A stretch of DNA of 64,000 nt from Streptomyces sp. NBC_00239 (lineage in GTDB: Bacteria; Actinomycetota; Actinomycetes; Streptomycetales; Streptomycetaceae), in contig NZ_CP108095.1 in assembly GCF_036194065.1 (NCBI RefSeq), forward strand, positions 7,068,001-7,132,000, read 5' to 3'. The notes beneath the pieces were generated by a model. It did no database searches. It saw nothing but the letters and a program-made list of their open reading frames with translations, and was not told the origin of the DNA. Position 1 is the first letter of the stretch, and every line of letters begins with the position of its first letter. Shown piece after piece: positions 33,337-58,827 of this stretch. Made by a program: the position numbers and the translations under genes.

Positions 33337-35019
33337 ATGGCGAACACCAGCCAGCGGGCCGACACCCTTTTCGTGGGAGGACGGGTCTTCACCGGGACGG
33401 CGGACGCCCCGGTCGACGCGGCCGTCGCCGTCGCCGACGGCAAGATCATCGCCGTCGGCGACGAGACCGGGATCCGCTCGCTCGCGGACGCCGCCACGGA
33501 GGTCGTCGACCTCGCCGGCGGACTGCTCGTCCCCGGCTTCCAGGACGCCCACGTCCACCCCGCCGTCGCCGGCGTCCAGATGCTCGGCTGCGACCTGAGC
33601 GAGGAGCGCACCATCGACGGCTACCTGGCCGCGGTGGCCCGCTACGCCGAGAAGCACCCGGCCTCGCCCTGGATCCGCGGCGGCGGCTGGTCGATGGACA
33701 TCTTCCCCGGCGGCACGCCGACCCGAGCCATGCTCGACGCCGTCGTACCGGACCGGCCCGTCATGCTCACCAACCGCGACGGCCACGGTGCCTGGGCCAA
33801 CACCCGCGCCCTCGAGACATCGGGCGTCGACCGCGACACCCCCGACCCGGTGGACGGACGGATCGAGCGGGAGGCCGACGGCACCCCGGCCGGCACCCTC
33901 CAGGAGGGCGCCGTGGACCTGGTCGCCCGCCACATGCCCATCGCGACCGCGGACGAGGCGCACGCCGGCCTGCTCGCCGCCCAGGAGCACCTGTTCTCCC
34001 TCGGCGTCACCAGCTGGCAGGACGCCATGATCGGCGTCTTCCCCGGCAACCCCGACAACTACGGCGTCTACCTGCGCGCCGCAGAGGAGGGCTCGCTGCG
34101 CGCCCGCGTCGTCGGCGCCCTCTGGTGGGACCGCGAGCGCGGCCTGGAACAGGTCCCGGAGCTGGAGGAACGCCGCCGCACCGGCCGCGTCGGCCGGTTC
34201 AGCGCCACCAGCGTGAAGATCATGCAGGACGGCATCGCCGAGAACTTCACCGCCGGCATGCTGGAGCCCTACCTCGACGGCTGCGGCTGCGCCACCGCCA
34301 ACTCCGGACTCAGCTTCATCGAACCCGCCCTCCTCACCGAGGCCGTGTGCGCCCTCGACGCCAAGGGCTTCCAGGTCCACTTCCACGCGCTCGGCGACCG
34401 CGCCGTACGGGAGGTCCTCGACGCCCTGGCCGCGGCCCGCGAGGCCAACGGCGCCAACGACAACCGGCACCACCTGGCCCACCTCCAGGTCGTCCACCCC
34501 GACGACATCGCGCGCTTCGCGGACCTGGGCGCCGCCGCCAACATCCAGGCCCTGTGGGCCGCGCACGAACCGCAGATGGACGAGCTGACCATCCCCTTCC
34601 TGGGCCCCGAACGCGCCGCCCTCCAGTACCCGTTCGGCGACCTCCAGCGCGCCGGCACCCGCCTGGTCGCCGGCAGCGACTGGTCGGTGAGCAGCCCCAA
34701 CCCGCTGTGGGGCATCCACGTCGCCGTCAACCGGATCGTCCCCGTCGAGGCGCCCAACGCCCCCGGGGAGCCCGAGCCCTGCGCCCCGTTCTTCCCCGAG
34801 CAGGCCCTGACCCTGGCCCAGGCCCTCACCGCGTACACCGCCGGCAGCGCCTGGGCGAACCACCAGGACGACATCACCGGCACCATCGAGCCCGGCAAGT
34901 GCGCGGACCTCGTCGTCCTGGACCGGGACCCCTTCGCCCACCCCTCCCTCGAGATCGCCGAGACCCGGGTGCTCCGTACCTACATCGACGGGGAGCTCGT
35001 CTTCGCCGCGAACGGCTGA
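33337..35019 (+). CDS. Amidohydrolase family protein (YtcJ-like)
   Basis: A 560-residue metal-dependent hydrolase of the amidohydrolase-3 type. It opens with the beta-sandwich strand ADTLFVGGRVFTGTADAP, then the metal motif FQDAHVHP, later VHFHALGDRAVREVL, HHLAHLQVVHPDD and the C-terminal metal Asp region LVAGSDWSVSSPNPLWG. Such enzymes hydrolyse C-N bonds in amides, ureides or imines. No signal peptide, so cytosolic. RBS CCGGAGGAT precedes ATG 33337. It leads the operon encoding ABC importer A, so it probably acts on an imported amide- or guanidine-type compound, which is inference. Confidence 0.85.
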   Translation: MANTSQRADTLFVGGRVFTGTADAPVDAAVAVADGKIIAVGDETGIRSLADAATEVVDLAGGLLVPGFQDAHVHPAVAGVQMLGCDLSEERTIDGYLAAVARYAEKHPASPWIRGGGWSMDIFPGGTPTRAMLDAVVPDRPVMLTNRDGHGAWANTRALETSGVDRDTPDPVDGRIEREADGTPAGTLQEGAVDLVARHMPIATADEAHAGLLAAQEHLFSLGVTSWQDAMIGVFPGNPDNYGVYLRAAEEGSLRARVVGALWWDRERGLEQVPELEERRRTGRVGRFSATSVKIMQDGIAENFTAGMLEPYLDGCGCATANSGLSFIEPALLTEAVCALDAKGFQVHFHALGDRAVREVLDALAAAREANGANDNRHHLAHLQVVHPDDIARFADLGAAANIQALWAAHEPQMDELTIPFLGPERAALQYPFGDLQRAGTRLVAGSDWSVSSPNPLWGIHVAVNRIVPVEAPNAPGEPEPCAPFFPEQALTLAQALTAYTAGSAWANHQDDITGTIEPGKCADLVVLDRDPFAHPSLEIAETRVLRTYIDGELVFAANG

Positions 35020-35099
35020 ACCGCCACCGGCGGCGCAGCAGCACCACGTACGTCCCCTCAAGCTCCCCCCTGAGCTCCCCCCTGACGGAGGTAGAGACG

Positions 35100-36761
35100 A
35101 TGACCTCAGCCCGAGCGACGACGCGAACGCCCCGAAGGCCGCGCCACACCCTAAGGACCGTCCTCGCGGCGGCGGCGGTACTCATCACGAGCGCGTGCAG
35201 CGGCGCCGCGGACCCGGAAGCCGGCCTCGTCGCGTACGAGCTCACGGACAAGACCCCGGCCGCGGCGGGCGACCTGGACTCCTTCACCTGGTCGATCTTC
35301 GCCGAGCCGACCTCGATCGACTACACGTACGCCTTCGACTACCCGCCCAACCAGGTCCTCGCCAACGTCTGCGAGAGCCTGCTGCGCTGGAACCCCGACC
35401 TGACGACCTCGCCGAACCTGGCGTCCTCGTACACCAACCCGACCCCCACCACCTGGGTGTACAAGATCCGCTCCGGCGTCCGCTTCCACGACGGCACGGC
35501 GCTCACCGCGGACGACGTCGTCGCCTCGCTGCGCCGCAACCTCGACCCCCAGACGTCCAGCGTGTGGGCCTACCCGTTCCGGAACGTGAAGTCGGTCGGC
35601 AAGACGGGCCCGATGGAGGTCACCGTCACCCTGGCCCGCCCCGACTCGACCTTCAACAAGTACCTGGCGGCCAGCCCCGGCACCGTCGAGTCCGCGGCCA
35701 CCCTCAAGAAGGCCGGCAAGGACTACGGCAGCCCCAAGACCGGCGTCAACTGCACCGGCCCGTTCTCGTTCGGCTCCTGGACGTCCGGCCAGTCCCTCGT
35801 GCTCAAGCGCTTCGACGACTACTGGAACCCACAGCTCAAGGCCAAGTCCGGCCAGGTGAAGTTCGTCTTCCTCGGCGACGCCACCACCCGCGTCAACGCC
35901 TTCCAGAGCGGTGAGGTCGACGGCGGCTGGATGGTCCCGCCCAGCTCCTACTCCCGGCTGAAGACGAGCACCGCCGGCACCCTCTACTTCGGCCGCAACA
36001 CCACGGTCGCCGACGAGGTCGTCAGCAACCTCGACGGCCCCCTGGGCGACAAGCGGATCCGCCAGGCCCTGCTCATGGCCATCGACCGCAAGGGCATCAT
36101 CAAGGCCGGCGCCGGCGGCGTCGGCGAGGTCGCCGACTCCCTCGTCACCCCCAACCTCTGGAACGACGCACCCGCCGCGGCCCGCAAGGACATCCTGGAC
36201 GCCGTGCCGCGCTACCCGTACGACCTGGCCAAGGCGAAGGAACTCGCCGCGCAGGCCGGGGTGTCCGGACAGCAGATCGTGATCGCCACCAGCCCGCTGG
36301 ACTCCCAGACCACGATCATCACCCAGGCCGTCGCCCAGGCGGCCAAGGCGATCGGGCTCACGCCGCGCATCGACACCATCTCCGCGGAGAAGTACTCGGC
36401 GCTGTTCACCGACCCGGCCGCCCGCAAGGGCATCGACCTCTTCCTCACCTTCTGGTACACCTCGATCACCGACCCGCTGGACATGTACGGCTCCCTGCGG
36501 ACCGGGGCGTTCAGCAACTACGGCAGCTGGTCCGAACCCCGCTTCGACGCCGCGATCGACCGGGCCATCGACACGTACGACCCGGCCGGGCACGCCGCCG
36601 CCAACGCCGAGGCCGAGCGGATCGCCCTGCGCGAGCTGCCCTGGCTGCCCCTGTACACCCAGCCCGTGAGCGTCTTCCTCGGCAAGCGGATCACCGGCGT
36701 CCAGCCCTCGATCGCCTACCTCTACTACCCGTGGGCGGCCGAGATCGGGGCGAAGGGATGA
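35100..36761 (+). CDS. ABC importer A: peptide-type substrate-binding lipoprotein
   Basis: A 553-residue family 5 (DppA/OppA) binding protein. N terminus RTPRRPRHTLRTVLAAAAVL then ITSACSG gives a lipoprotein signal with Cys33. Family blocks: RWNPDLTTSPNLASSY, VYKIRSGVRFHDGTALTADD, RIRQALLMAIDRKGIIKAG. ATG 35100 follows ACGGAGGTAG. Clearly paralogous to the 51,408 protein (shared NVCESLLRW, TWVYxxRSGVRFHDG and DxLDM/L blocks). Start overlaps nothing upstream, but its stop overlaps the first permease gene (ATGA). Ligand could be a dipeptide or a cationic amine; family does not decide. Confidence 0.9.
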   Translation: MTSARATTRTPRRPRHTLRTVLAAAAVLITSACSGAADPEAGLVAYELTDKTPAAAGDLDSFTWSIFAEPTSIDYTYAFDYPPNQVLANVCESLLRWNPDLTTSPNLASSYTNPTPTTWVYKIRSGVRFHDGTALTADDVVASLRRNLDPQTSSVWAYPFRNVKSVGKTGPMEVTVTLARPDSTFNKYLAASPGTVESAATLKKAGKDYGSPKTGVNCTGPFSFGSWTSGQSLVLKRFDDYWNPQLKAKSGQVKFVFLGDATTRVNAFQSGEVDGGWMVPPSSYSRLKTSTAGTLYFGRNTTVADEVVSNLDGPLGDKRIRQALLMAIDRKGIIKAGAGGVGEVADSLVTPNLWNDAPAAARKDILDAVPRYPYDLAKAKELAAQAGVSGQQIVIATSPLDSQTTIITQAVAQAAKAIGLTPRIDTISAEKYSALFTDPAARKGIDLFLTFWYTSITDPLDMYGSLRTGAFSNYGSWSEPRFDAAIDRAIDTYDPAGHAAANAEAERIALRELPWLPLYTQPVSVFLGKRITGVQPSIAYLYYPWAAEIGAKG

Positions 36762-37738
36762 CGACCGCGGCACACAGGGGCCTGGCGCGGGCCGTACGGG
36801 TCCTGCGCCGGCTCGCCGGGATGGCGGCCACCCTCCTGGTGACCTCCTTCCTGGTGTTCTCCTCGCTCTACCTGGCACCGGGCGACCCGGCGAGCTTCCT
36901 GGTACGGGGACGCAGCGCGAGCCCCGAGGAACTGGCCGCGATCCGCAGCCAGTACGGCTTCGACGAGCCCTTCCCGGTCCGCTACTGGAACTGGCTCGAA
37001 GGCGTCCTGCACGGCGACCTCGGCCGCTCGTACCTCTTCCACCAGGACGTCAGCGCCGTCATCTGGTCCCGGCTGCCGGCCTCCCTCCTGCTGGTCGCCG
37101 TCGCGACGCTGATGATCGCCGTCGTGGGCGTCGCCGCCGGCGTGATCGGCGCGCTGCGCCGGGGCACCCGTACCGACACCACGCTCATGCTGCTGGTGAC
37201 GGTCGGGGCCGCCGCCCCCGCCTTCGTCGTCGCCCTCGTGCTGCGCTCGGTGTTCGGAGTGGAGCTCGGCTGGTTCCCCACCATCGGCAACGGCAGCGGC
37301 GTACTCGGCCGGCTGCACCACGTCGTCCTGCCGGCGGTCGCGCTGTCCGTGACCTTCATGGCGCTCGTGACCCGCGTTACCCGCTCGGCGATGCTCGACG
37401 AACTCCGGCGCGAACACGTCGAGGTCGCACTGAGCCGCGGCACACCCCGCCGGACCGTGATCCGGCGGCACGTGCTGCGCAACGCACTCGGACCGATCGT
37501 GACGGTCTCGGCGCTGCTCGTGTCGGGGATGCTCGTCAGCACCGCGATCGTCGAGACGGCGTTCGGCATGTCCGGGGTGGGATCGCTGCTCGTGCAGTCG
37601 GTCAACCAGCTCGACTTCCAGGTGGTGCAGGCCATCGTCCTGCTGGTGGTGGCCGCGTTCGTGGTGGTCAACGCCCTGGTCGACCTCGTCCACCCGCTCA
37701 TCGACCCCCGGGTCGCGGCCGCAGGGAGCGCACGATGA
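36758..37738 (+). CDS. ABC importer A: DppB-type permease
   Basis: A 326-residue membrane permease with six predicted helices. N-terminal motif LYLAPGDPASFLVRGRSASP and a typical EAA loop, HVEVALSRGTPRRTVIRRHV, contact the ATPases. Start ATG 36758 shares ATGA with the binding-protein stop. Forms the transmembrane pore with the next gene product. Confidence 0.92.
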   Translation: MTTAAHRGLARAVRVLRRLAGMAATLLVTSFLVFSSLYLAPGDPASFLVRGRSASPEELAAIRSQYGFDEPFPVRYWNWLEGVLHGDLGRSYLFHQDVSAVIWSRLPASLLLVAVATLMIAVVGVAAGVIGALRRGTRTDTTLMLLVTVGAAAPAFVVALVLRSVFGVELGWFPTIGNGSGVLGRLHHVVLPAVALSVTFMALVTRVTRSAMLDELRREHVEVALSRGTPRRTVIRRHVLRNALGPIVTVSALLVSGMLVSTAIVETAFGMSGVGSLLVQSVNQLDFQVVQAIVLLVVAAFVVVNALVDLVHPLIDPRVAAAGSAR

Positions 37739-38601
37739 GCGCATGGACCGCAGGGGTCGTGCGCGGCCCGCTCGCACGGCTGCGGGCCCTCGGCGGCGGT
37801 CCGCTCCAGCGGATCTGCCTGGTGCTCCTGGGCCTCTTCGTCCTGGTCGCACTCTTCGCACCCTGGCTCGCGCCGCAGGACCCGACCTTCGGCGAGCTGG
37901 GCGAGACCCTCTCCCCGCCGAGCGCCGCCCACTGGCTGGGCACCGACCAGGGCGGGCACGACACCTTCTCGGCGCTGATCGAGGGCGCCCGAACCAGCCT
38001 GGCCGGACCGCTCGCCGTGGTGCTGTTCTCCACGCTCGCCGGCATCGCCGTCGGCCTGCTCGCGGCATGGCGGGGCGGCTGGGCCGACACCCTCATCAAC
38101 CGGATCCTCGACATCGTGTTCGCCTTCCCCGCGCTGCTGCTCGCGATCCTCGCGGTGGCCGTGTTCGGCAAGGGCATGACCGCACCGGTCCTGGCCATGG
38201 CGATCGCGTACATGCCGTACACGGCCCGCCTGGTGCGCGGCCTGGCCGCGCAGGAGAAGGCCCGCCCGTACATCGCCGCCTACCGGGTGCAAGGACACTC
38301 CGGCCCGTACGTCGCGGTCCGCAGACTGCTGCCGAACATCGGCCCGACCGTGCTCGCCCAGTCCACCGTCAACTTCGGCTACGTCCTGCTCGACCTGGCC
38401 GCCCTGTCCTTCCTCGGCCTCGGCGTCCAGCCCCCGACACCCGACTGGGGAGCCATGATCAACCAGGGCCAGGCGGCCGTCCTCGAAGGCAGGCCGCTCT
38501 CCGCGACCGCGCCCGCCATGGCGATCGTGCTCGTGGTCGTCGCCTTCAACGTCGTCGGGGAGAGCCTCGGCGACCGGCTCGCGGGGAGGGAATCCCGATG
38601 A
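37735..38601 (+). CDS. ABC importer A: DppC-type permease
   Basis: A 288-residue permease with six predicted helices. It has the DppC N-terminal region APWLAPQDPTFGELGETLSP, the loop IAAYRVQGHSGPYVAVRRLL, and the typical ending GLGVQPPTPDWGAMI. ATG 37735 overlaps the preceding stop by four bases. Confidence 0.92.
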   Translation: MSAWTAGVVRGPLARLRALGGGPLQRICLVLLGLFVLVALFAPWLAPQDPTFGELGETLSPPSAAHWLGTDQGGHDTFSALIEGARTSLAGPLAVVLFSTLAGIAVGLLAAWRGGWADTLINRILDIVFAFPALLLAILAVAVFGKGMTAPVLAMAIAYMPYTARLVRGLAAQEKARPYIAAYRVQGHSGPYVAVRRLLPNIGPTVLAQSTVNFGYVLLDLAALSFLGLGVQPPTPDWGAMINQGQAAVLEGRPLSATAPAMAIVLVVVAFNVVGESLGDRLAGRESR

Positions 38602-39668
38602 CACTGCTCGCCTACGACGACCTGCGGATCACCCTTCCCGGGATGGCCCGCCCGGTCCTGGACGGCATCACGCTGAACGTGTCCGCCGGAGAGGTCGTCG
38701 CCCTCGTCGGCGAATCCGGCTCCGGCAAGTCGGTCACCGCCCGCGCCGCCCTCGGCCTCTTCCCGGCCGGCGCCGGGATCGGCGGCCGGGTGCGCGTGGA
38801 AGGCACCGACCTCGTCGGCGCCGACGCCGCCGCCCTGCGCGACGTACGCACCTCCAAAGCGTCGATGATCTTCCAGGACCCGCGCGCCGGCATCAACCCG
38901 GTACGGCGCATCGGGGACTTCCTCACCGAGTCGCTGCGCCGGCGCAGCGGCTGGACCAAGGAACGCGCCAACGCCCGCGCCGCCGAACTCCTCGACGCGG
39001 TCGGCCTGCCCGACCCCGTCCGGCACCTGCGCCAGTACCCGCACGAACTGTCCGGCGGCATGCTCCAACGCGTCATGATCGCCGGCGCGCTCACGGCCGA
39101 CCCCCGGCTGCTGCTGTGCGACGAACCGACCACCGCCCTCGACGTCAGCACCCAGGCCGAGATCATGGCGATCCTGGGCAGGCTCCAGCGCGAACACGGC
39201 CTGGGCATGCTCCTGATCACGCACGACGTGGAACTCGCGGCCGCCGCCTGCGACCGGATCTACGTGATGTACGCGGGACGGATCGTCGAAACCGCCACCC
39301 GCACCGAGCTGTTCGCCACGCCCCGGCACCCGTACACGGCCGGCCTGCTCGGATCCTCCCCGCCCCTGGAAGGCCCGGTCGGCCGCCTCGCCCCCATCCC
39401 CGGCGCCCCGATGGGACTGCTGGACTCCGCGCCGGGCTGTTCCTTCGCACCCCGCTGCGGCTTTGCCCAGCCCGGCCGCTGCGACCAGTCCCCGCCGCCG
39501 CTGCTCCCGCACGGCCCGGCGCTGGTGGCCTGCCACCGGGCAGGCGAACTCACCGGCCCGGCCGGTGCGCCGCAGCCCGTGACCGCGGGCCGCGCCGTCA
39601 CGCCGGACCCGCCCGTCCTGCCGGTCCCGTCCCTCCTGTCCGCTCCATCCTCCGAGGAGGACCGGTGA
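38598..39668 (+). CDS. ABC importer A: DppD-type ATPase
   Basis: A 356-residue ATPase: Walker A GESGSGKS, Q-loop FQDPRAGINPV, signature LSGGMLQRVMIAGAL, Walker B LLLCDEPTTALD, H-loop THD. The C-terminal oligopeptide-transporter extension has PRHPYTAGLL and Cys residues that usually bind an iron-sulfur cluster (CSFAPRCGFAQPGRCDQ). ATG 38598 overlaps the permease stop by four bases. Confidence 0.93.
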   Translation: MTLLAYDDLRITLPGMARPVLDGITLNVSAGEVVALVGESGSGKSVTARAALGLFPAGAGIGGRVRVEGTDLVGADAAALRDVRTSKASMIFQDPRAGINPVRRIGDFLTESLRRRSGWTKERANARAAELLDAVGLPDPVRHLRQYPHELSGGMLQRVMIAGALTADPRLLLCDEPTTALDVSTQAEIMAILGRLQREHGLGMLLITHDVELAAAACDRIYVMYAGRIVETATRTELFATPRHPYTAGLLGSSPPLEGPVGRLAPIPGAPMGLLDSAPGCSFAPRCGFAQPGRCDQSPPPLLPHGPALVACHRAGELTGPAGAPQPVTAGRAVTPDPPVLPVPSLLSAPSSEEDR

Positions 39669-40540
39669 CCACGGTGAACACCCCGCCCCAGCCGTCCGCG
39701 GGCCCGGCCGCCGCGGCCCGCACCTTGCTCCAGGTGAACGGCCTGCGCAAGACCTACCGCACGGGGACGACCGAGGTGGTCGCCGTCGACGACCTGTCGT
39801 TCTCCCTGCGGGCCGGCGGCGCGCTCGGCATCGTCGGGGAGTCAGGATCCGGGAAGACCACCACGGCCCGCATGCTCGTCGGGCTGGAACACCCGGACGC
39901 GGGGGAGATCCTCGTCCAGGGGAAGCCGCCGGCCGCGGCCGTACGCGGCAGGGCGGCGAGGCTGGCCCGCGCGAAGGCGGTCCAGATCGTCTTCCAGGAC
40001 CCGTACCTCTCACTGGACGCCCGCATCGGCATCGGCGACACCGTCGACGGGGTGCTGCGGCTCCACGGCCTCCGCGATCCGGCGGCCCGGGCCGCCCGGG
40101 TCAGGGAGCTGCTGGCCCAGGTCGGCCTCGGCGACCGCGAGGCGGCCGCGCTGCCCCGCCGGCTCTCCGGCGGACAGCGCCAGCGCGCTGCGATCGCACG
40201 GGCGCTGGCCGTCGAGCCGGCCGTCCTCGTCCTCGACGAGGCGGTGTCCGCCCTGGACGTCTCGGTGCAGGCGCAGGTCCTCAACCTGCTGTCCGACATC
40301 CGCCGCGACACCGGCATCGGCCTCGTCTTCGTCAGCCACGACCTCGCGGTCGTCCGGTACGTCTGCGACGAGGCGCTCGTCCTCTACCGCGGCCGGACCA
40401 TCGAACACCGGCCCGTCGCGGACCTGCTGGCCACCCCCGAACACCCCTACACCCGCCTGCTGCTGGCCTCGGTGCCCCGCCCCGGCTGGGACCCCGGCTC
40501 CATCAGCCGGCGCCGCCGGGAGCTCGACGCCCCGGGGTGA
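39665..40540 (+). CDS. ABC importer A: DppF-type ATPase
   Basis: A 291-residue ATPase: Walker A GESGSGKTT, Q-loop FQDPYLSLDARI, signature LSGGQRQRAAIARAL, Walker B LVLDEAVSALD, then TPEHPYTRLLLASVP. GTG 39665 overlaps the previous stop by four bases. Last gene of the 33,337-40,540 operon. Confidence 0.93.
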   Translation: MTTVNTPPQPSAGPAAAARTLLQVNGLRKTYRTGTTEVVAVDDLSFSLRAGGALGIVGESGSGKTTTARMLVGLEHPDAGEILVQGKPPAAAVRGRAARLARAKAVQIVFQDPYLSLDARIGIGDTVDGVLRLHGLRDPAARAARVRELLAQVGLGDREAAALPRRLSGGQRQRAAIARALAVEPAVLVLDEAVSALDVSVQAQVLNLLSDIRRDTGIGLVFVSHDLAVVRYVCDEALVLYRGRTIEHRPVADLLATPEHPYTRLLLASVPRPGWDPGSISRRRRELDAPG

Positions 40541-40687
40541 GGCGGGCGCACCGCGATCCGGCCGGGGCCGGGGAACGCCGGCAGCGGACCGGACCGGGCC
40601 GGGCGCGGGCGCACCGCGATCCGGCCGGGCCGCGACGCGGCGGGAACCCTCCTGGGCATCGGGCCTCCGGTGCCACAGGATCAACGG
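40541..40687. repeat. Direct repeats behind importer A
   Basis: GCGCACCGCGATCCGGCCGG at 40546 recurs at about 40608 in a very GC-rich stretch that can form several short stems. No open frame here has a ribosome site. It probably ends the long operon, although no single terminator stands out. Confidence 0.5.
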
Positions 40688-40876
40688 GTGACCGGACACG
40701 ACCACGCGCACCCGGCGGCCGACATCCTGCTCACCGGGGCGGCCGGCCGGATCGGCCGGATGCTCCGCCCCGGCCTGGCGGCACGCGGCTGGACCGTGCG
40801 CCCGTACGACCTGCAACCCGCGCCCCGCACTGGCCGGACGCGTCCCCGCAACGGCTCGTACGCCCGCACCCGGTGA
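40688..40876 (+). pseudogene. Truncated NAD(P)-dependent epimerase/dehydratase remnant
   Basis: GTG 40688 opens a 62-residue frame whose centre, ADILLTGAAGRIGRMLRPGL, is the first strand, glycine-rich GxxGxxG turn and helix of a Rossmann-fold sugar epimerase or uronate dehydrogenase-like protein. The second strand, WTVRPYDL, follows at the right distance. After PAPRTG the frame drifts into Arg-rich sequence and stops. The remaining 200 or so residues of the family are missing, so this is a decayed gene start. Confidence 0.6.
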
Positions 40877-40921
40877 CAGGCCGCGTACGCCCGCCCGGGT
40901 ACGCCCCGGTAAGGTCGGCGC

Positions 40922-41503: not shown

Positions 41504-41514
41504 CGGGCCCGGAC

Positions 41515-44396: not shown

Positions 44397-44438
44397 GTCG
44401 TCTCCTCCTGGTGATCTCGCCGGCCAGTGTCTCATATT

Positions 44439-46197: not shown

Positions 46198-46214
46198 GCG
46201 ACGACCGTGGACAT

Positions 46215-50299: not shown

Positions 50300-51322
50300 A
50301 TGACTGCATTCCGTATGCCCGCCGAGTGGTCCGCGCACGACGGGTGCCTGATGGCCTGGCCCACCCGCCAGGACCTGTGGGGGAGCGTGCTGGACGAGGC
50401 CAAGGAGGAGTACGCCGACGTCGCCCGGGCCATCGCCGGATTCGAGCCCGTGACCATGGTCGCGCCGCCCGGCCACGGGGAGGAGGCCCGCACCCGCTGC
50501 GGCACCGACGTCACCGTGATCGAGCTGCCCCTCGACGACTCCTGGTTCCGGGATTCCGCCCCGCTGTTCGTCCTCGACGGCGACGGCAACCGCGCCGGCG
50601 TGGACTTCCGCTTCAACGCCTGGGGCGGCAAGCACCACCCCTTCGACGCCGACGACCGGATCAGCTCCCTGCTGCTGGAGCACCTCGGAGTCGACCGGAT
50701 CGCCTCCGACATGATCCTCGAAGGCGGCGCGATCACCGTCGACGGCGAGGGCACGCTGATCACCACCGAGCAGTGCCTGCTGCACCCCAACCGCAACCCC
50801 GGCCTGACCCGTGACGAGATCGAGGCCGAACTGAAGACCCGGCTCGGGGTCACCAAGGTCATCTGGCTGCCCTACGGCGGTCTGCTCGACACCGAGACCG
50901 ACGGCCACGTCGACGGGGTCTGCGCCTTCGCCGCGCCCGGCACGGTCGTCGTCTCGCTCCCCTCCGACCCGGACCACCCCGACTACGCCCGGATGCGCGC
51001 CAACCGCGCCGTGCTCGACGCCTCCACCGACGCCCGCGGCCGCCGGCTGGAGATCATCGACGTACCCCAGACGGCCTTCGCCGACCTCGCCGGCGGCGAG
51101 ATCGAGGTGTCCTACCTGAACTACTACGTCGCCAACGGCGGCGTGGTCGTTCCGGTGGCCGGCATGCCCCAGGACGACGAGGCCCTCGCGGTGATCGCCT
51201 CGGCCCACCCCGGCCGCAAGGTCGTCGGCGTGCGCGCCCTCGCCATCGCCTTCGGCGGCGGCGGAGTCCACTGCATCACCCAGCAGGTCCCCGCCACGCG
51301 CACCACCGCGGCCGCCGGCTGA
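50300..51322 (+). CDS. aguA: Agmatine deiminase 3, cytosolic
   Basis: A 340-residue enzyme without signal peptide, closest of the four to classical agmatine deiminase (agmatine to N-carbamoylputrescine plus ammonia). It opens at once with FRMPAEWSAHDGCLMAWPTR. Active-site blocks: DDSWFRDSAPLF, EGGAITVDGEGTLI, DTETDGHVDG with His203 (the typical DTDGHVD form), GGGGVHCITQQVP with Cys325. Start ATG 50300 follows GAAGAAGAGAGA. The importer B binding protein starts 85 bases downstream on the same strand, so the enzyme probably handles what importer B brings in. No AguB (N-carbamoylputrescine amidohydrolase) gene is present. Confidence 0.9.
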   Translation: MTAFRMPAEWSAHDGCLMAWPTRQDLWGSVLDEAKEEYADVARAIAGFEPVTMVAPPGHGEEARTRCGTDVTVIELPLDDSWFRDSAPLFVLDGDGNRAGVDFRFNAWGGKHHPFDADDRISSLLLEHLGVDRIASDMILEGGAITVDGEGTLITTEQCLLHPNRNPGLTRDEIEAELKTRLGVTKVIWLPYGGLLDTETDGHVDGVCAFAAPGTVVVSLPSDPDHPDYARMRANRAVLDASTDARGRRLEIIDVPQTAFADLAGGEIEVSYLNYYVANGGVVVPVAGMPQDDEALAVIASAHPGRKVVGVRALAIAFGGGGVHCITQQVPATRTTAAAG

Positions 51323-51407: not shown

Positions 51408-53072
51408 ATGACCACCTCCCCACCCCGCGCGAGCAGACGCCCCTACCGCGCCGGCCGCCGCAGCGCGGGCCTCGCCACCGCCGTTCTGACCTCTTCCGCC
51501 CTGCTCGCGGCCTGTGCGGGTCCGCCCAAGGGCGACCCCGGCAACGTCACCGACGTGCACCTCTCCGCGTCCACGCCCACCGCCCGCGGCGAGATCGACT
51601 CCTTCACCTGGGCCGTCTACGCCGAACCGCCCACCCTCGACTACACGGTGGCGTTCGACTACCCGCAGAACACGATCCTCTCCAACGTGTGCGAGAGCCT
51701 CATGCGCTGGACCCCGGAGCTGACCACCGAGCCCGGGCTGGCCGTCAAAGCCGCCAACCCCGACCCCACCACGTGGGTCTACGACCTGCGCTCCGGCGTC
51801 CGCTTCCACGACGGCGGCATCATGACCGCCGACGACGTGGTCTACAGCCTCGGCCGCCAGATGGACCCGGACAACGCCGCCGCCTGGGCCCAGGTCTTCC
51901 AGAACGTCGCCGGCGTGACCAAGACCGGCCCCCTCCAGGTCACCGTCAAGCTCAAGAAGCCCGACTCCCAGTTCCCCCAGTACATGGCGACCGCCGCCGG
52001 AGTGGTGGCCTCCAAGGCCGGCATCGAAGCGGCGGGCAAGGACTACGGCACCGCCGGCAGCCTCGCCTGCACCGGTCCCTTCAAACTCGGCACCTGGAAC
52101 AAGGGCCAGTCGATCGAACTCGAACGCTTCGACGGCTACCGCGGCGAGAAGGCCAAGTCCAGGAAGGCCGTCTTCCGGGTCCTCACCGACCCCTCCGCCC
52201 GCACCAACGCCCTGCTCAGCGGAGAAGCCGACGGCGGTTACCTCATCCCCACCGAGAGCTACGCCCGGCTGCGCGGCAGCGGCGTCGGCACGCTGTACTT
52301 CGGCGAGGGCCTGAGCACGGTCAACGTCAACGTCACCAACATGAAGGGCCCGCTCGGCGACGTCCGCGTACGGCGCGCCCTGTCCCTGGCCCTCGACCGC
52401 TCCGGATTCGTCAAGGCCGGACTCGGCGGCGCCGGCACGGTCACGAACTCGCTCACCACCCGGGCCGCCTGGGCCGCCGCCCCCGAGAACACCCTGAAGG
52501 TCGCCCTCGACAGCCTGCCGCGCCCCGACCGGGACATCGAGAAGGCGAAGGCGCTGATCAAGGAGGCGGGTGCCACCGGCAGGACGCTGACCGTCGCCAC
52601 CAGCTCCATCGGCCAGGACGTCTCCCTCCTCGCCACCGCGGTCCAGGCCGCCGGCACCCAGATCGGCCTGGACATCCGGCTCAAGACGATCGCCCCGAAC
52701 GCCTTCACCGCGCTGTTCACCGATCCCAAGGCGCGCGAGGGCATCGACATGTTCCCGCTCACCTACTACGACTCGATCACCGATCCGCTGGACCTGCTCA
52801 CGGCCTTCAAGACCGGCGCCTACCTGAACTTCGCCGGCTACAGCGACAAGAAGTACGACGCGCTGGTCGACCGGGCCACCGCGACGTACGACCGGCGGGC
52901 GCGGCTCGCCGTCGAGGCCGAACTCCAGAAGCGGGCCGCCGAACAGCTGCTGTGGATCCCGGTGGCCGAATGGCCCACCGCGATGTTCCTCAACAAGAGG
53001 ATCACCGGCGCCCCCACGACCATCTCCTACATGTACCACCCGTGGGCCGCCGGCGTGGGGGCAGCCCAGTGA
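51408..53072 (+). CDS. ABC importer B: peptide-type substrate-binding lipoprotein
   Basis: A 554-residue family 5 binding protein with signal RRSAGLATAVLTSSALLAAC (lipobox Cys at LLAAC). Blocks shared with importer A protein: [89 protein letters not shown] precedes ATG 51408. The stop overlaps the permease start (GTGA). Being transcribed with deiminase 3, its ligand is plausibly agmatine, an arginine peptide, or the ureido product of the exported deiminases. Confidence 0.9.
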   Translation: MTTSPPRASRRPYRAGRRSAGLATAVLTSSALLAACAGPPKGDPGNVTDVHLSASTPTARGEIDSFTWAVYAEPPTLDYTVAFDYPQNTILSNVCESLMRWTPELTTEPGLAVKAANPDPTTWVYDLRSGVRFHDGGIMTADDVVYSLGRQMDPDNAAAWAQVFQNVAGVTKTGPLQVTVKLKKPDSQFPQYMATAAGVVASKAGIEAAGKDYGTAGSLACTGPFKLGTWNKGQSIELERFDGYRGEKAKSRKAVFRVLTDPSARTNALLSGEADGGYLIPTESYARLRGSGVGTLYFGEGLSTVNVNVTNMKGPLGDVRVRRALSLALDRSGFVKAGLGGAGTVTNSLTTRAAWAAAPENTLKVALDSLPRPDRDIEKAKALIKEAGATGRTLTVATSSIGQDVSLLATAVQAAGTQIGLDIRLKTIAPNAFTALFTDPKAREGIDMFPLTYYDSITDPLDLLTAFKTGAYLNFAGYSDKKYDALVDRATATYDRRARLAVEAELQKRAAEQLLWIPVAEWPTAMFLNKRITGAPTTISYMYHPWAAGVGAAQ

Positions 53073-54028
53073 ACATCGCCAGATTCGCCGTGCGACGGGT
53101 GGCGGAGATGGCCGCCACCCTCCTGGGCGCGTCGTTCGTGGTCTTCGGCGCGATGTACCTCGCGCCGGGCAGCCCCGCCGGCTTTCTGCTCGCCGGCCGC
53201 TCCGCCTCACCCGAAGCGCTCGCCGCGATCAACGCCCGGTACCACCTCGACGACCCCTTCCTCGTCCGGTACCTGCGCTGGCTCGGCGACGTGCTGCAGG
53301 GCGACTTCGGGCGCTCCATCACCTACCGCACCGACGTCTCGCGGCTGCTCGCCGACCGGCTCCCCACCACGCTGCTGCTGATCACGATGGCGCTGGCCGT
53401 GGTCGTCGCCCTCGGGCTGCTGCTCGGCTGGATCGCGGCGGTCCGCGGCGGCGCCACCGACTCCGCCGTCCTGGTCACCACCACGTTCGCCGTCGGCACC
53501 CCGTCCTTCGTCGCGGCCGTCCTGCTCCAGGGCCTGTTCGCCGTCAACCTCGGCTGGTTCCCCAGCAGCGGGGCCGGCGACGGCTTCGGGGACATGGTCT
53601 GGCACCTGACCCTCCCCTCGATCGCGCTGGCCCTGTACCTGATCGGCATGCTGGCCCGCGTCACCCGCTCCGCGATGGCCGAGGCCCTCGACAGCGAGCA
53701 CGTCACGGTCGCCCGCAGCCGCGGCGTCCCCGAACGACAGGTCATCCGCCGCCACGTGTTCCGCAACGCCCTGGGAACCGTCCTGACCACCGGCGGTCTG
53801 ATCGTCTCCACCCTGCTGGTCTGCACGATCCTCGTCGAGACCGCCTTCAGCATCGGCGGCATCGGACAACTCCTCGAACTGTCCACGACCACCAAGGACT
53901 TCCCCACGGTCCAGGCCATCTCCCTCATCATCGTCGCCCTGTTCATGACCGTGAACCTCGTCGTCGACCTGCTGCTGCCCCTGGTGGACCCGCGGATCGC
54001 CCTCGGTTCGAGGAGGTCCTCCGCATGA
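53069..54028 (+). CDS. ABC importer B: DppB-type permease
   Basis: A 319-residue six-helix permease starting at GTG 53069, overlapping the binding-protein stop. It shares MYLAPGSPAGFLLAGRSASP and the EAA loop HVTVARSRGVPERQVIRRHV with the importer A counterpart. Confidence 0.92.
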   Translation: MNIARFAVRRVAEMAATLLGASFVVFGAMYLAPGSPAGFLLAGRSASPEALAAINARYHLDDPFLVRYLRWLGDVLQGDFGRSITYRTDVSRLLADRLPTTLLLITMALAVVVALGLLLGWIAAVRGGATDSAVLVTTTFAVGTPSFVAAVLLQGLFAVNLGWFPSSGAGDGFGDMVWHLTLPSIALALYLIGMLARVTRSAMAEALDSEHVTVARSRGVPERQVIRRHVFRNALGTVLTTGGLIVSTLLVCTILVETAFSIGGIGQLLELSTTTKDFPTVQAISLIIVALFMTVNLVVDLLLPLVDPRIALGSRRSSA

Positions 54029-54879
54029 CCGCCGTCCTGACGCGCCGGCCGGGCCTCGCCCGGATCCGGTCACCGAGGTCCCCGCTGTACGTGCTCTGCA
54101 TGGGGTTCGTCGCCCTCGTGGTGGCGGCGGCACTCCTCGCCCCCTGGGTGGTGCCGTACGACCCCAACGTCATCGACCTGGGCAACGCACTCGCCGGACC
54201 CTCCGCCGGGCACCCGCTCGGCGTGGACGCGGCCGGCCGCGACACCCTCTCGCGGCTGCTGCTGGGCGCGCGCACCTCGCTCCTCGGCCCTCTGGGAGTC
54301 GTGGTCTTCTCCACCGTCGCCGGTGTCGCCATCGGCACGGCCGCCGCCTGGAGGGGCGGCTGGCTCGACTCGGTCCTGTCCCGCAGCACCGAGCTGGTCT
54401 TCGCCTTCCCCGGCATGCTGCTGGCCATCCTGATCATCTCGGTCTACGGCGAAGGCCTGACCGCACCGGTCATCGCCCTCGCCATCGCCTACCTGCCCTA
54501 CGTCAGCCGCCTCACCCGCTCCCTGGTCCTTGCCGAGCGCGAACGCCCCTACGTCAGCGCGTACCAGGTCCAAGGCCACTCGGCGGTGCAGATCTGCCTG
54601 CGCCACGTCCTGCCCAACATCGCCCCCGTGGTCCTCGCCCAGTCCACCATCAACTTCGGCTACGCCCTGATGGACCTCGCCGGTCTCTCGTTCCTCGGGC
54701 TGGGCGTGCCGGCGCTCACCCCCGACTGGGGCCGCATGGTCTTCGACGGGCAGACCGCCGTCCAGCACGGCTACCCGCTGTCCGCGATCCTGCCCTGCGC
54801 CTTCATCGTGCTGACGGTGGTCGCCTTCAACGTGGTCGGGGAACGCTGGGCCGACCGCGTCGCCAGGAGAGACCGATGA
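54025..54879 (+). CDS. ABC importer B: DppC-type permease
   Basis: A 284-residue permease with six predicted helices, loop VSAYQVQGHSAVQICLRHVL and ending GLGVPALTPDWGRMV. ATG 54025 overlaps the preceding stop by four bases. Confidence 0.92.
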   Translation: MTAVLTRRPGLARIRSPRSPLYVLCMGFVALVVAAALLAPWVVPYDPNVIDLGNALAGPSAGHPLGVDAAGRDTLSRLLLGARTSLLGPLGVVVFSTVAGVAIGTAAAWRGGWLDSVLSRSTELVFAFPGMLLAILIISVYGEGLTAPVIALAIAYLPYVSRLTRSLVLAERERPYVSAYQVQGHSAVQICLRHVLPNIAPVVLAQSTINFGYALMDLAGLSFLGLGVPALTPDWGRMVFDGQTAVQHGYPLSAILPCAFIVLTVVAFNVVGERWADRVARRDR

Positions 54880-55940
54880 GCCCCATGAAACCGACCGGCC
54901 CCGCGAGCCCCACCGACCCGGCCCGCCCGACGGATCCGACGCGCACGACGGCGGATGCGTACGTGCTCGACGTCCGGGGACTCAGGATCACCCTGCCCGG
55001 CACCGCGCGCCCCGTCCTCGACGGCGTCGACCTCACCGTCGCGCCCGGCGAGACCGTCGCCCTCGTCGGCGAGTCCGGCTCCGGGAAGACCCTCACCTCC
55101 CGCGCCGCCCTACGGCTGCTCCCGCCCGGCGCCACGGCCGAGGGCTCCGTCCGGGTGGCCGGCCGGGACGTCCTGGCCATGGGCGCCGACGACCTGGGCG
55201 CCCTGCGCACCCGCACCGCGGCCATGGTCTTCCAGGACCCCCGCGCAGCCGTCAACCCGCTCCGCCGGATCGGGGACTTCCTCACCGAGAGCGTCAGGCT
55301 CGCCAGGACGGCGAGCCTGAGCCGGCCCCGGGCGACCGCCCGTGCCGTCGAACTCCTGGAAGCCGTGGGCCTGGACGCCTCGGCCCTCCAGAAGTACCCC
55401 GGCCAGGTCTCCGGCGGAATGCTCCAGCGGGTCGTGATCGCGGCGGCCCTCATGGGGGACCCCGTCCTCCTGCTGGCCGACGAGCCGACCACCGCCCTCG
55501 ACGTCACCACCCAGGCCGAGGTCATCGCCCTGCTGGCCACGCTCCGCGAACGCTTCGGCACCGGCCTGCTCTTCGTCACCCACGACCTCGACCTCGCCGC
55601 CGCCATCAGCGACCGGGTCTGTGTCATGTACGCCGGGCGAATCGTCGAGACCGGCCCGGCCGCGGACCTGTTCGCGCACCCCCGCCACCCGTACACCGCC
55701 GCGCTGCTCGCCTCCACCCCCCGGCCGGCGGCGCCGCGGGGCCGGCTCGCCGCCATCGACGGCCGGCCGCCCGACCTGCGGCAGGAACTCCACGGCTGCT
55801 CCTTCGCCGCCCGCTGCCCGTTCGCCACGGAGATCTGCGACCGGCAGGCCCCGCAGCCGCTGGCCGCCCCGGGACGCCCGGAACACCGGGCCGCCTGCCA
55901 CCACACCGACCGCCTCGAAGGGAGCCCGGCCGATGCCTGA
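54876..55940 (+). CDS. ABC importer B: DppD-type ATPase
   Basis: A 354-residue ATPase with a 25-residue Pro/Thr-rich N-terminal tail, Walker A GESGSGKT, signature VSGGMLQRVVIAAAL, Walker B LLLADEPTTALD, and a Cys-containing oligopeptide-transporter C terminus (CSFAARCPFATEICD). ATG 54876 overlaps the permease stop by four bases. Confidence 0.93.
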   Translation: MSPMKPTGPASPTDPARPTDPTRTTADAYVLDVRGLRITLPGTARPVLDGVDLTVAPGETVALVGESGSGKTLTSRAALRLLPPGATAEGSVRVAGRDVLAMGADDLGALRTRTAAMVFQDPRAAVNPLRRIGDFLTESVRLARTASLSRPRATARAVELLEAVGLDASALQKYPGQVSGGMLQRVVIAAALMGDPVLLLADEPTTALDVTTQAEVIALLATLRERFGTGLLFVTHDLDLAAAISDRVCVMYAGRIVETGPAADLFAHPRHPYTAALLASTPRPAAPRGRLAAIDGRPPDLRQELHGCSFAARCPFATEICDRQAPQPLAAPGRPEHRAACHHTDRLEGSPADA

Positions 55941-56730
55941 GCACGTACTGGAGGCCGTCGGCCTCCACCGCAGCTACGGGACCGTACGGGCCGTGGAAGA
56001 CGTGTCGTTCGTCCTCCCCGAGGGCGGCTCCCTGGGCATCGTGGGCGAGTCCGGCTCCGGCAAGACCACCACCGCCCGGATCGTCGTCGGCCTGGAGCGG
56101 GCCGACTCCGGCGAGGTCCTCGTACGGGGCAAGGCCCGGCCGGCGCACGGGCGCGGTCGCGCACAGCGCCTGGCTCGGGCCCGCGAGGTCCAGATGGTCT
56201 TCCAGGACCCCTACCTCTCCCTCGACCCCAGGACCAGCATCGAAGGGGTCCTCCGCGAGACCCTGCGCCTGCACTTCCCCGGCGGGGACCACGACCGGCG
56301 CGTCCGCGAACTCCTCGACCAGGTCGGCCTCGGCAGCCGGGCGGCGCAGGCCCGGCCCCGCCAGCTCTCCGGCGGTCAGCGCCAGCGGGTCGCCATCGCG
56401 CGCGCCCTGGCCGTCGAGCCGGCCGTGCTCGTCCTCGACGAAGCCGTCGCGGCCCTCGACGTGTCGGTGCAGGCTCAGATCCTCAACCTGCTCGCCGACA
56501 TCCGGGAGGAGACCCGGATCGGCTACCTGTTCATCACCCACGACCTGGGCGTGGTGCGCTGCGTCACGGACGACGTGATCGTCATGCGTGAGGGCCGGAT
56601 CGTCGAGGCGGGCGCCACGGCGGAGGTGCTCGCCGCGCCCCGGCACCCGTACACGCGGCTCCTGATGGAGTCGGTGCCCCGTCCCGGCTGGGATCCCGCG
56701 TCGATCGCCGCCGCCCGCCGGGCCCTGTGA
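55933..56730 (+). CDS. ABC importer B: DppF-type ATPase
   Basis: A 265-residue ATPase: Walker A GESGSGKTT, Q-loop FQDPYLSLDPRT, signature LSGGQRQRVAIARAL, Walker B LVLDEAVAALD. ATG 55933 lies 8 bases inside the preceding gene. Last gene of the deiminase 3/importer B operon. Confidence 0.93.
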   Translation: MPEHVLEAVGLHRSYGTVRAVEDVSFVLPEGGSLGIVGESGSGKTTTARIVVGLERADSGEVLVRGKARPAHGRGRAQRLARAREVQMVFQDPYLSLDPRTSIEGVLRETLRLHFPGGDHDRRVRELLDQVGLGSRAAQARPRQLSGGQRQRVAIARALAVEPAVLVLDEAVAALDVSVQAQILNLLADIREETRIGYLFITHDLGVVRCVTDDVIVMREGRIVEAGATAEVLAAPRHPYTRLLMESVPRPGWDPASIAAARRAL

Positions 56731-56788: not shown

Positions 56789-57469
56789 TCAGGCGCCGGC
56801 GGCGAGCGTGCGCACGAGCACGCGCAGCACCGCGCCCGCGTCGAACTCCGCGTCGAGGGACTGAGCGGCGGCCAGTCCGTCCACGGCCGCGGCCACCGCC
56901 TCGCCCAGCGGGCGGGCGTCGACGTCCTCGCCGCGTTCGTCCGCCAGCACCCGGAACAGGTCCACGAAGCAAGCCCGCCAGCGCCGGTACTCCGCCTCCA
57001 GGGACTCCCGTACGCGCTCGTCGTTCAGCGCGTGCCAGTGCAGCGCGGCGTGCAGGTGCGAGAGGTCGGCGCTCTCGGGCTCCGTCAGTAGGGCGAGGAC
57101 CCGCTCGGCCCGCTCGGCGAAGGCGCCGGGCGCGGACACAGCCTGTTCGAGGGGGGAAATCCACTCGGGCCGGATGTCCTCGACGACCGCCAGGACGAGG
57201 TCGGTGCGGTCCTTGAAGTGGTAGTGGCACATCCCGTGCGAAACCCCGCACAGGGCGGCCACGTTGCGCGTGGTGAAGCGCTCGCTCTGCTCGCCCGCGA
57301 GCAGGGTGCGGGCCGCCGCGACGAGCCGTGCCCGGGTCTGCTCGCCCTTGGCCGACACGCGGGGCCGGCCCGTGGGAGCGGGACCCGCGGGGGCGGGGAC
57401 GGTGCGGGCCGGGACCGTACGGGCGGGGGCCGTGCCGAGATCCCGGGAACTCTTCGCGGATGCTGCCAT
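56789..57469 (-). CDS. TetR-family regulator beside deiminase 4
   Basis: A 226-residue TetR protein with an unusual 40-residue Ala/Pro/Thr-rich N-terminal tail, then the DNA-binding domain (EQTRARLVAAARTLLAGEQS, FTTRNVAALCGVSHGMCHYH, FKDRTDLV). The ligand domain has AALHWHALNDERVRESLEAE. It diverges from deiminase 4, with a perfect palindrome between them (57,592). It is a different branch from the 40.9 and 43.8 kb regulators, so deiminase 4 is probably induced by another signal. Confidence 0.88.
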   Translation of the reverse strand: MAASAKSSRDLGTAPARTVPARTVPAPAGPAPTGRPRVSAKGEQTRARLVAAARTLLAGEQSERFTTRNVAALCGVSHGMCHYHFKDRTDLVLAVVEDIRPEWISPLEQAVSAPGAFAERAERVLALLTEPESADLSHLHAALHWHALNDERVRESLEAEYRRWRACFVDLFRVLADERGEDVDARPLGEAVAAAVDGLAAAQSLDAEFDAGAVLRVLVRTLAAGA

Positions 57470-57591
57470 GGCGCCACTCTAACCAGCGTCCCGGCGCCAC
57501 CTGCGGGTTTCTCCGGTCCGGTCGACATCCGTTCGGCATCCGCCCGGTGTTCGTGCGGCACCCCCCCCCGCAGAACTGGTGTCGAGATTAT

Positions 57592-57609: not shown

Positions 57610-57666
57610 GTTCTAGCTTCCCTTCAACACCCCATCCAATGCAGGCAGTTGAGACAGGAGACAGCC

Positions 57667-58827
57667 ATGAACGATCACGCTGTGAGTCATCCCTCGGGTG
57701 AGGGGATGGGCAGGCGGAGGTTCCTGACGGTCGCGGGACTGACCGCCGCGGGCGCCGCGCTGGCCGCGGCCGAAGGCCGTGCCCGGGCGGCGTCGCGGAG
57801 GAGCGGCGCCGCGTCGGCGGCCGGCTTCAGCGTCCCGATCGAGGACGTCCGGCACACCCGCACCTGGATGGCCTGGCCCGACAGCACCTCGATCTGGGGC
57901 GGCAAACTCGGCGGCGTGCAGGCGGACATCGCGCTGATCGCGAAGACCATCGCCCGCTACGAACCCGTCGTCATGTGCGCCAACTCCGCGGGCGCCGCCA
58001 AGGCCCGCTCGATGTGCGGCACGTCCGTCACCGTCATCACCTCGATCCCGGTCGACGACTGCTGGATGCGCGACAGCGGACCGGTCTTCCGCACCGACGG
58101 CGCCGGCGGCCTCGACGCCGTCGGACTGAACTTCAACGGCTGGGGCAACAAGCAGACCCACGCCAAGGACGCCCTCGTCGCCGAGCGGATCGCCGCCTAC
58201 GCGGGCGTGCCGTTCAGCCGCGCCGACCTGGTGGGCGAGGGCGGGGCCATCGAACAGGACGGCGCCGGCACCCTGATGGCCACCCGCAGCAGCCTCGTCA
58301 ACCGCAACCGCAACCCCGGGATGTCGCAGGCACAGGTCGAGAGCGCGATGCTCGCCGCCTACGGCGCCTCCAAGGTCATCTGGTTCGACGGCGTCGTCGG
58401 TCAGGACATCACCGACGACCACGTCGACGCCACCTCGCGCTTCCTCGCCCCCGGCAGGGCGCTCGTCCAGATGCCCCTGGCCTCCGACAACGACGTCTAC
58501 GCGAAGGACGCGCGCAAGCAGTACCAGGTCCTGTCCACCGCCACGACGGCGTCCGGCACCCCGATGTCCGTCTCCAGGCTCCAGGGCCCCGACTACTACA
58601 AGATCCGCTCCGCCAACCCGGACTTCCTCGCCTCCTACGCCAACTACTACCTGTGCAACGGCGCCCTCGTCACCGGGCAGTTCGGGGACACCGCCGCCGA
58701 CGCCGCCGCCCGGTCCACTCTCGCCCGGCTCTTCCCCGGCCGCGCCATCGAACAGCTCAACATCGACCGCCTGGGCACCGGCGGCGGCGGTATCCACTGC
58801 GTCACCCAGCAGCAGCCGGTGGCGTGA
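57667..58827 (+). CDS. Agmatine/peptidylarginine-type deiminase 4, Tat-exported
   Basis: A 386-residue pentein deiminase with twin-arginine signal GMGRRRFLTVAGLTAAGAAL and cleavage after ARA near residue 41. Active-site blocks: DDCWMRDSGPV, EGGAIEQDGAGTLM, QDITDDHVDA with His252, GGGGIHCVTQQQP with Cys378. Residues near the substrate carboxylate side (EQDG instead of ETDG) differ from deiminases 1 and 2. ATG 57667 follows GACAGGAGAC. Convergent with the LysR gene, whose stop lies 12 bases away. Confidence 0.88.
   Translation: MNDHAVSHPSGEGMGRRRFLTVAGLTAAGAALAAAEGRARAASRRSGAASAAGFSVPIEDVRHTRTWMAWPDSTSIWGGKLGGVQADIALIAKTIARYEPVVMCANSAGAAKARSMCGTSVTVITSIPVDDCWMRDSGPVFRTDGAGGLDAVGLNFNGWGNKQTHAKDALVAERIAAYAGVPFSRADLVGEGGAIEQDGAGTLMATRSSLVNRNRNPGMSQAQVESAMLAAYGASKVIWFDGVVGQDITDDHVDATSRFLAPGRALVQMPLASDNDVYAKDARKQYQVLSTATTASGTPMSVSRLQGPDYYKIRSANPDFLASYANYYLCNGALVTGQFGDTAADAAARSTLARLFPGRAIEQLNIDRLGTGGGGIHCVTQQQPVA

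Follow-up and report, generated by a model that had tools for sequence, protein, structure and literature searches.

The window analysed here is a stretch of 64,000 nucleotides from the 9.3-Mb genome of Streptomyces sp. NBC_00239 (contig NZ_CP108095.1, positions 7,068,001 to 7,132,000), and our interest lies in one of its gene clusters, operon B, in which a fused urease gamma/beta subunit (UreAB) and a divergent urease alpha subunit (UreC-like) stand between two deiminases of family PF04371. The earlier note on this DNA had described positions 33337 to 58827 as an island for the use of guanidino compounds, and its inventory was borne out by Pfam scans, which recovered four PF04371 deiminases (PAD1 to PAD4), the fused Urease_gamma/beta protein, the Urease_alpha protein, two complete importers (solute-binding protein, permease, permease, ATPase, ATPase), an Amidohydro_3 enzyme and an N-formylglutamate amidohydrolase (FGase). 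The count of four TetR regulators in that span needs a small correction: three lie inside it (40922-41503, 43812-44435 and 56789-57469), while the fourth (32500-33210) lies just upstream. A Ser/Thr kinase (44566-46197), absent from the earlier note, also falls within the span. Operon A (33337-42312) precedes the operon B side of the island; PAD1, TetR4 and the kinase lie upstream of operon B, and TetR3 on the minus strand and then PAD4 on the plus strand follow it. Genes were called with a simple score of GC content by codon position, and some neighbouring genes were identified by eye. The features are listed below; occurrence counts refer to the nine loci that carry both PAD3 and the importer B binding protein, which is how we define the island layout, in a sample of 80 loci, which were the best 80 of 569 and lean to close relatives.

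40922-41503, plus strand: TetR2 regulator (Pfam); homologue in 8 of 9 island loci, in 7 directly upstream of UreAB
42351-43523, minus strand: PAD1 deiminase, Tat/lipoprotein-like (Pfam); in 7 of 9 island loci
43812-44435, minus strand: TetR4 regulator (Pfam); in 7 of 9 island loci
44566-46197, plus strand: Ser/Thr kinase between PAD1/TetR4 and PAD2, an optional island member (Pfam); in 4 of 9 island loci
46433-47590, plus strand: PAD2, PF04371 deiminase with predicted twin-arginine (Tat) export, first gene of operon B (Pfam; N-terminus by eye)
47684-48379, plus strand: UreAB, fused urease gamma/beta (Pfam; NCBIfam NF009671 passed with 310.6 bits, cut-off 243)
48376-50127, plus strand: UreC-like, divergent urease alpha (Pfam; below the TIGR01792 cut-off; AlphaFold urease fold)
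50300-51322, plus strand: PAD3 deiminase, the next gene after UreC, lacking an export peptide (Pfam; TIGR03380 352.5 bits, cut-off 381.8; 1vkp nearest)
51408-53072, plus strand: importer B solute-binding protein, family 5 (Pfam; under all NCBIfam cut-offs including NikA)
53069-54028, plus strand: importer B permease 1 (Pfam, scanned within the longer frame 51689-54028)
54025-54879, plus strand: importer B permease 2 (Pfam)
54876-55940, plus strand: importer B ATPase 1 (Pfam)
55933-56730, plus strand: importer B ATPase 2 (Pfam)
56789-57469, minus strand: TetR3 regulator (Pfam); in 3 of 9 island loci
57667-58827, plus strand: PAD4 deiminase, predicted Tat export (Pfam); in 9 of 9 island loci

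Operon B runs in the order PAD2, UreAB, UreC-like, PAD3, solute-binding protein, permease, permease, ATPase, ATPase, with intergenic gaps of -8 to 172 bp. Across the whole genome there are six PF04371 matches, of which two fall beyond the window, and the catalytic sites, which had been described as intact in the four window copies, are so throughout: H203, D205 and C325 (PAD3 numbering) do not vary among the six paralogues, and the Asp after Arg84 is present in five of them, being Ala in the copy at 567 kb. We take these four residues to belong to the pentein catalytic site. Neighbours of the 567-kb copy (L013:9568-10590; codes beginning with L or G are our labels for loci and genomes) are an AurF-type N-oxygenase and a gene resembling class II tRNA synthetases, together with what looks by eye like an acyl-carrier gene; the copy is perhaps a repurposed member of a biosynthetic cluster. 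Twin-arginine-like export peptides, again recognised by eye, start three of the four window deiminases, and this layout of exported and cytosolic enzymes fits the earlier suggestion of processing outside the cell followed by uptake. The closest solved structures for PAD1, PAD2 and PAD3 are agmatine deiminases (for PAD3 the agmatine iminohydrolase/deiminase 1vkp), and the two best PDB matches of PAD4 (6nib and 1xkn) were deposited as peptidyl-arginine deiminase, with agmatine deiminase 3h7c in third place. An assignment of the window deiminases to the Porphyromonas PPAD type was rejected: PPAD chains (4yt9, 5ak7) match PAD1 and PAD2 at E ~3e-6, against 1e-59 to 1e-64 for agmatine deiminase, they match PAD3 at E 2e-12, against 3e-83, and none matched PAD4 at E 0.001. 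The product of the agmatine-deiminase family is a substituted urea.

The UreC-like protein scores 645.4 bits against the urease equivalog model TIGR01792, under its cut-off of 680, and passes the broader subfamily model NF009686 (750 bits, cut-off 354). Its residues H150, H152, K230, H232, H259, H285, H333, R349 and D373 align with those of canonical ureases and are presumably the metal ligands, the carbamylated Lys and the catalytic His and Arg; the metal-ligand positions are kept throughout the UreC-like group. The flap Cys is replaced by Val in 80 of the 80 loci and by Ala in a few island copies, the substrate loop is four residues shorter in the window protein and at least four shorter across the group, and an Ala near the metal Asp has become Gly. 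The flap Cys and the conserved substrate loop are features that we take as defining urease. Six positions (Q173, W179, N184, G262, V332 and G376) are invariant in 73 Streptomyces and G208-type proteins. An AlphaFold model made from a 73-row alignment reached a pLDDT of 84; its top matches are urease folds (TM ~0.92), and because these come first the model says little about the substrate.

In a tree that included seven other ureases as contrast, the Streptomyces UreC-like group joins proteins from G208/G218 and G007/G022/G127 and copies from plasmid-borne nonribosomal peptide synthetase (NRPS) clusters (support 0.99), and island-type UreC appears at more than one place, with modest support. The plasmid copies are 65-67% identical to the window UreC and at two of the six invariant places still have the canonical residues, Thr and Ala. 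They come from four Streptomycetaceae plasmids (L099-L102; NZ_CP108786.1, NZ_CP109401.1, NZ_CP109047.1 and NZ_CP109408.1, three annotated and the fourth read by gene caller alone), on which UreAB/UreC-like pairs adjoin condensation/adenylation NRPS genes, a phosphotransferase and a 2-oxoglutarate-Fe (2OG-Fe) oxygenase-like gene; here the urease relative has apparently been recruited to natural-product synthesis. The branch next to the UreC-like group, L140 and L145 (G218, G074), has UreG and UreD close by and a partner that is fused or resembles UreAB, keeps the flap Cys and has a different and shorter substrate loop; it is possibly another urease variant. For comparison we chose 20 ureases by hand, 17 from 396 sampled genomes of the phylum and three from the search of Streptomyces genomes, and read stretches of at most 12 kb: a UreG gene is close by in 15 of the 15 other ureases vs none of the five UreC-like group members, and the flap Cys, which is Val or Ala in the group, is kept by 14 of the 15. 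With the G208 protein as query, 1353 proteins scored at E 1e-150 or better, and the 120 matches listed are mostly metagenomic or without an organism name, with one from Gaiellales. Matches outside Streptomyces reach at most 53% identity in the 396 phylum genomes, among which Kitasatospora was not sampled; a Kitasatospora UreC-like protein reaches 88% in the separate locus search (best 80 of 569).

Three full ureC genes are present in the window genome, namely a canonical one (L014, with subunit genes, UreF, UreG and UreD nearby), the window copy and a copy at 2.70 Mb (L012); there are also two weak PF00449 matches (L010 and L011). The 2.70-Mb locus reads UreAB, UreC, a deiminase that we call PADc, and TetR, and stands beside an NCS1 permease and leuB-, ilvE- and cimA-like genes identified by eye. 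The window and 2.70-Mb UreC proteins are 94% identical, their neighbouring deiminases 44%, and the DNA match between the loci (89%) is confined to UreAB-UreC, so that nearly the same urease relative stands beside two different deiminases. The 2.70-Mb arrangement is the core form, and by the gene numbers in passages of PMC3293853 the core copy of S. coelicolor is SCO5525-5527.

We then counted this arrangement in 151 Streptomyces genomes, leaving out the canonical ureases, which match with identities no higher than 53%. There are 98 UreC-like copies (77-100% identity) in 88 of these genomes, and every one of the 98 stands by a deiminase: 89 have PADc on the same strand at a distance of 23-785 bp and nine, including the window copy, stand by PAD3, with one TetR gene between in four. 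The distribution is nested, with 88 genomes carrying both UreC-like and PADc, 12 carrying PADc only and none carrying UreC-like only (Fisher p ~4e-29, with relatedness ignored). The 80-locus sample, which overlaps with these genomes (L059 and L117 are one strain), comprises 69 core loci, nine islands and two loci that end within 100 bp of ureC, and a deiminase match lies at most 213 bp away in 78 of the 80; in L024 the two layouts are mixed, PAD3 and importer B occupying the core site. Importer B accompanies seven of the eight non-window PAD3-linked copies, G405 being the exception, and no match to its binding protein occurs at any core locus of the 80. Of the linkage that the earlier note had proposed to look for, that between deiminase and fused UreAB/UreC is supported in every Streptomyces copy that could be checked, and that with importer B at most island copies. 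The core pair is not peculiar to this island, being found in 88 of 151 Streptomyces genomes. The pairing recurs in other actinobacterial families, as UreAB-UreC-deiminase in G208 (with a family-5 importer upstream) and as deiminase-UreAB-UreC in G007, so that two of the five group members not of the Streptomyces type have an adjoining deiminase.

Canonical ureases depend on the accessory proteins UreD, UreF and UreG for maturation. Three genomes (G171, G479 and G528) carry UreC-like and PADc with no other UreC at E 1e-100; in these three no UreF was found, UreG stays under its cut-off (24-31 vs 204 bits) and no UreD exceeds its own, the partial UreD match of G171 reaching 23 bits (cut-off 27). 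UreG is likewise unmatched in G208, G127 (85% complete), G022 and G007. Because the UreC-like gene persists in genomes without UreD, UreF or UreG over cut-off, the simplest reading of these gene contents is that the protein may be assembled independently of accessory proteins; the window genome itself carries UreD, UreF and UreG at its canonical locus.

AguB (TIGR03381), the enzyme that follows agmatine deiminase in the Pseudomonas and plant route, was found over cut-off in none of 20 genomes tested, and its presence in the window genome was rejected, the best nitrilase there reaching 260 of 410 bits; the locus of that nitrilase has, by eye, dihydropyrimidinase-like and aminotransferase genes, i.e. 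pyrimidine breakdown. An amidase-signature gene of the AguY type was not found among the scanned proteins of operon B and the core locus, the whole genome not having been searched. Eight genomes show a clean loss of UreAB-UreC with PADc kept, a set that excludes G107, G431 and G434 (contig ends beside PADc) and G502 (non-syntenic). A nitrilase, NIT2 (at least 85% identity), is present in six of these eight vs none of the 88 UreC-like genomes (p ~3e-8); its nearest PDB chains are named N-carbamoylputrescine amidohydrolase (NCPAH), and it scores 217 of 410 bits against the AguB model. NIT2 also occurs in G469, which has neither PADc nor UreC-like.

These observations suggest that operon B and its simpler core-genome twin would form a two-step pathway from guanidine to amine, of which the island is the scavenging version and the widespread Streptomyces deiminase/urease-relative pair the common one. 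In the first step a cytosolic deiminase (PAD3 or PADc) or an exported one (PAD1, PAD2 or PAD4) would convert an alkylguanidine to an N-substituted urea and ammonia, the most likely substrate being agmatine and the product N-carbamoylputrescine. In the second, the UreAB-UreC-like complex, a urease without the flap cysteine and part of the urea-enclosing loop, would split the substituted urea to an amine (putrescine), CO2 and ammonia and so stand in for AguB or AguY, with a metal centre assembled without UreD, UreF and UreG; importer B would bring in the product or the substrate of the exported deiminases. That the UreC-like protein splits the deiminase's ureido product by hydrolysis, its main substrate being N-carbamoylputrescine, is a prediction from sequence that we consider evenly balanced between right and wrong. 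The earlier note had assigned the release of ammonia to the urease-like enzyme together with the cytosolic deiminase; the tie to the deiminase stands, but the enzyme probably does not split urea and acts on the ureido product instead. More tentatively, and leaning slightly to the doubtful side, we propose that the clade of proteins which carry a urease alpha annotation in Streptomyces, in other Actinomycetota and in metagenomes may as a whole be an accessory-independent, possibly non-nickel N-alkylurea amidohydrolase, a third non-homologous NCPAH besides AguB and AguY that would have been recruited repeatedly beside deiminases and to NRPS clusters.

Several known systems are close to the proposal. 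The AguA-AguB route of Pseudomonas and plants likewise couples a PF04371 deiminase to a carbamoyl-removing enzyme, but AguB belongs to the nitrilase family and here a urease-family complex would replace it. Canonical nickel urease (UreABC/UreDEFG) shares the fold and the metal ligands, and the fused gamma/beta form is known elsewhere; the UreC-like locus differs in having no accessory genes and a linked deiminase, and its protein in the lost flap Cys, the shortened loop and a score under the TIGR01792 cut-off. The iron urease UreA2B2 of Helicobacter mustelae is not known to need accessory proteins. We know of no deiminase link for that enzyme. It too is a second urease copy, in its case with another metal, as described in the parts seen of PMC3816311 and PMC3919588, but it is a true urease, and its structure 3qga is one among many similar fold matches to our model. 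AguY, according to passages of PMC12283126 (2025), was found by its consistent juxtaposition with aguA, also in Actinomycetota, with Shewanella and Microterricola as examples; it is a non-homologous NCPAH recognised by the same kind of evidence as is used here, but AguY is an amidase homologue, and that text mentions neither urease nor Streptomyces. That ure(AB)C stands alone in S. coelicolor and S. avermitilis, where it is the core form of the same genes, was noted in 2008, and the parts seen of that paper (PMC2492869) do not discuss deiminase linkage, pocket changes or function. A passage of PMC4991794 uses SCO5526 for nrdABS, which is probably a misprint. In the open-licence PMC literature, covered largely through titles and passages, we found no description of the function of this deiminase/urease-relative pair.

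Several findings weigh against the two-step pathway from agmatine. The urease at L144 has a flap Val despite a canonical loop and UreG nearby, and the flap change alone is therefore not diagnostic. No deiminase was found in the flanks of the UreC-like genes of G218, G022 and G127 (a 6.6-kb contig), nor in the flanks read of the four plasmid NRPS clusters, one of them unannotated. In the 2008 tree, as far as passages of PMC2492869 show, the S. coelicolor copy groups with ureases in ureEFGD clusters, a placement that counts against accessory-independent assembly. The 260-bit nitrilase does exist in the window genome, and its S. coelicolor counterpart is probably SCO6414, which a passage of the ArgR paper (PMC3293853) lists among homologues of the arginine decarboxylase (ADC) pathway. 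A NIT2 homologue of 61-65% identity coexists with UreC-like in four of the 88 genomes, and a tree of cimA and PADc places the losses at three points, with NIT2 in two of those groups; the nitrilase pattern thus amounts to at most two independent events and is confounded by relatedness. Finally, the TIGR03380 agmatine-deiminase equivalog cut-off of 381.8 bits is reached by no deiminase (PAD1-4 235-353 bits, PADc 310), and an NCS1 permease stands at 54 of the 69 core loci. The NCS1 family carries nucleobases and hydantoins and is not known to carry agmatine, and this permease is the strongest hint at another substrate.

The last two points, together with the presence of UreC-like genes in NRPS clusters, favour an alternative in which the deiminase and the UreC-like protein perform the same two-step chemistry on another guanidino or cyclic ureido compound, such as an NCS1 cargo or an arginine derivative. 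We consider this unlikely, though likelier than the other alternatives: agmatine deiminases are the nearest structures of PAD1 to PAD3 and the third of PAD4, the Porphyromonas enzyme being far weaker or, for PAD4, unmatched, and the nitrilase of the loss genomes is closest to N-carbamoylputrescine amidohydrolase.

That the protein is an ordinary, slightly divergent urease, splitting urea from the environment or from a deiminase of free guanidine, we hold to be improbable. It would explain why all the metal-ligand and catalytic His/Arg positions and the urease fold (TM ~0.9) are kept, and a passage of the ArgR paper (PMC3293853) puts SCO5525-5526 among urea-utilizing genes. However, a canonical urease together with UreF, UreG and UreD is already present in the genome, the flap Cys and substrate loop are changed, and UreC-like persists in genomes without UreD, UreF or UreG over cut-off. 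Substituted ureas, not urea, are moreover what a deiminase yields except where it acts on guanidine, and a search of four stretches totalling 124 kb gave neither a guanidine riboswitch nor any other Rfam family at threshold.

A role of importer B as a nickel importer of the NikABCDE type, feeding a metalloenzyme and taking up neither guanidine compounds nor products, is very improbable. Its binding protein and both permeases do score best to nickel-transporter models, but all its proteins stay under the NCBIfam nickel-importer cut-offs (e.g., NikA TIGR02294 94 of 393 bits and NikB TIGR02789 215 of 447), GsiB/oligopeptide models score close behind, the ATPases score highest to oligopeptide/dipeptide models, and the binding protein is unmatched at core loci.

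A chance neighbourhood of unrelated nitrogen genes, extremely improbable overall and favoured only by the unconserved operon A, is already contradicted for operon B by the 98 of 98 linkage in Streptomyces and its repeats in two other families.

For operon A chance remains the default reading. Operon A pairs the Amidohydro_3 enzyme with an importer resembling importer B and with the FGase, which lies far below the HutG cut-off (34.5 vs 278.75 bits). The amidohydrolase and FGase are absent from the 60-kb stretches around all eight related islands, and importer A finds there ATPase matches of 26-38% only; the corresponding result of none in nine island loci of the 80-locus sample is fair for the FGase only, as 13 kb separate the amidohydrolase from ureC while the flanks were 10 kb. 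The single 26-kb pathway of the earlier note was therefore rejected: with no conserved link for operon A and a conserved core in operon B, the 26 kb comprise two modules. Each gene of importer A has its paralogue in importer B (48-64%), and TetR2 and TetR4 are 72% identical paralogues, so the two operons may share a history.

After the island, positions 58840-63034 of the window encode a LysR regulator, an alpha/beta hydrolase and another binding protein of family 5, the third (Pfam). Upstream of the island lie a sigma factor containing regions 2, 3 and 4 as well as two proteins of HATPase type (31357-32250, 25162-26331 and 30301-31230).

If the proposed pathway is correct, urease, long regarded as a urea-specific enzyme, would include a natural branch for substituted ureas that matures without nickel chaperones. 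The missing second step of the Streptomyces deiminase route to putrescine would be filled, and the enzyme would add to the convergent series of NCPAHs reported in 2025 (PMC12283126).

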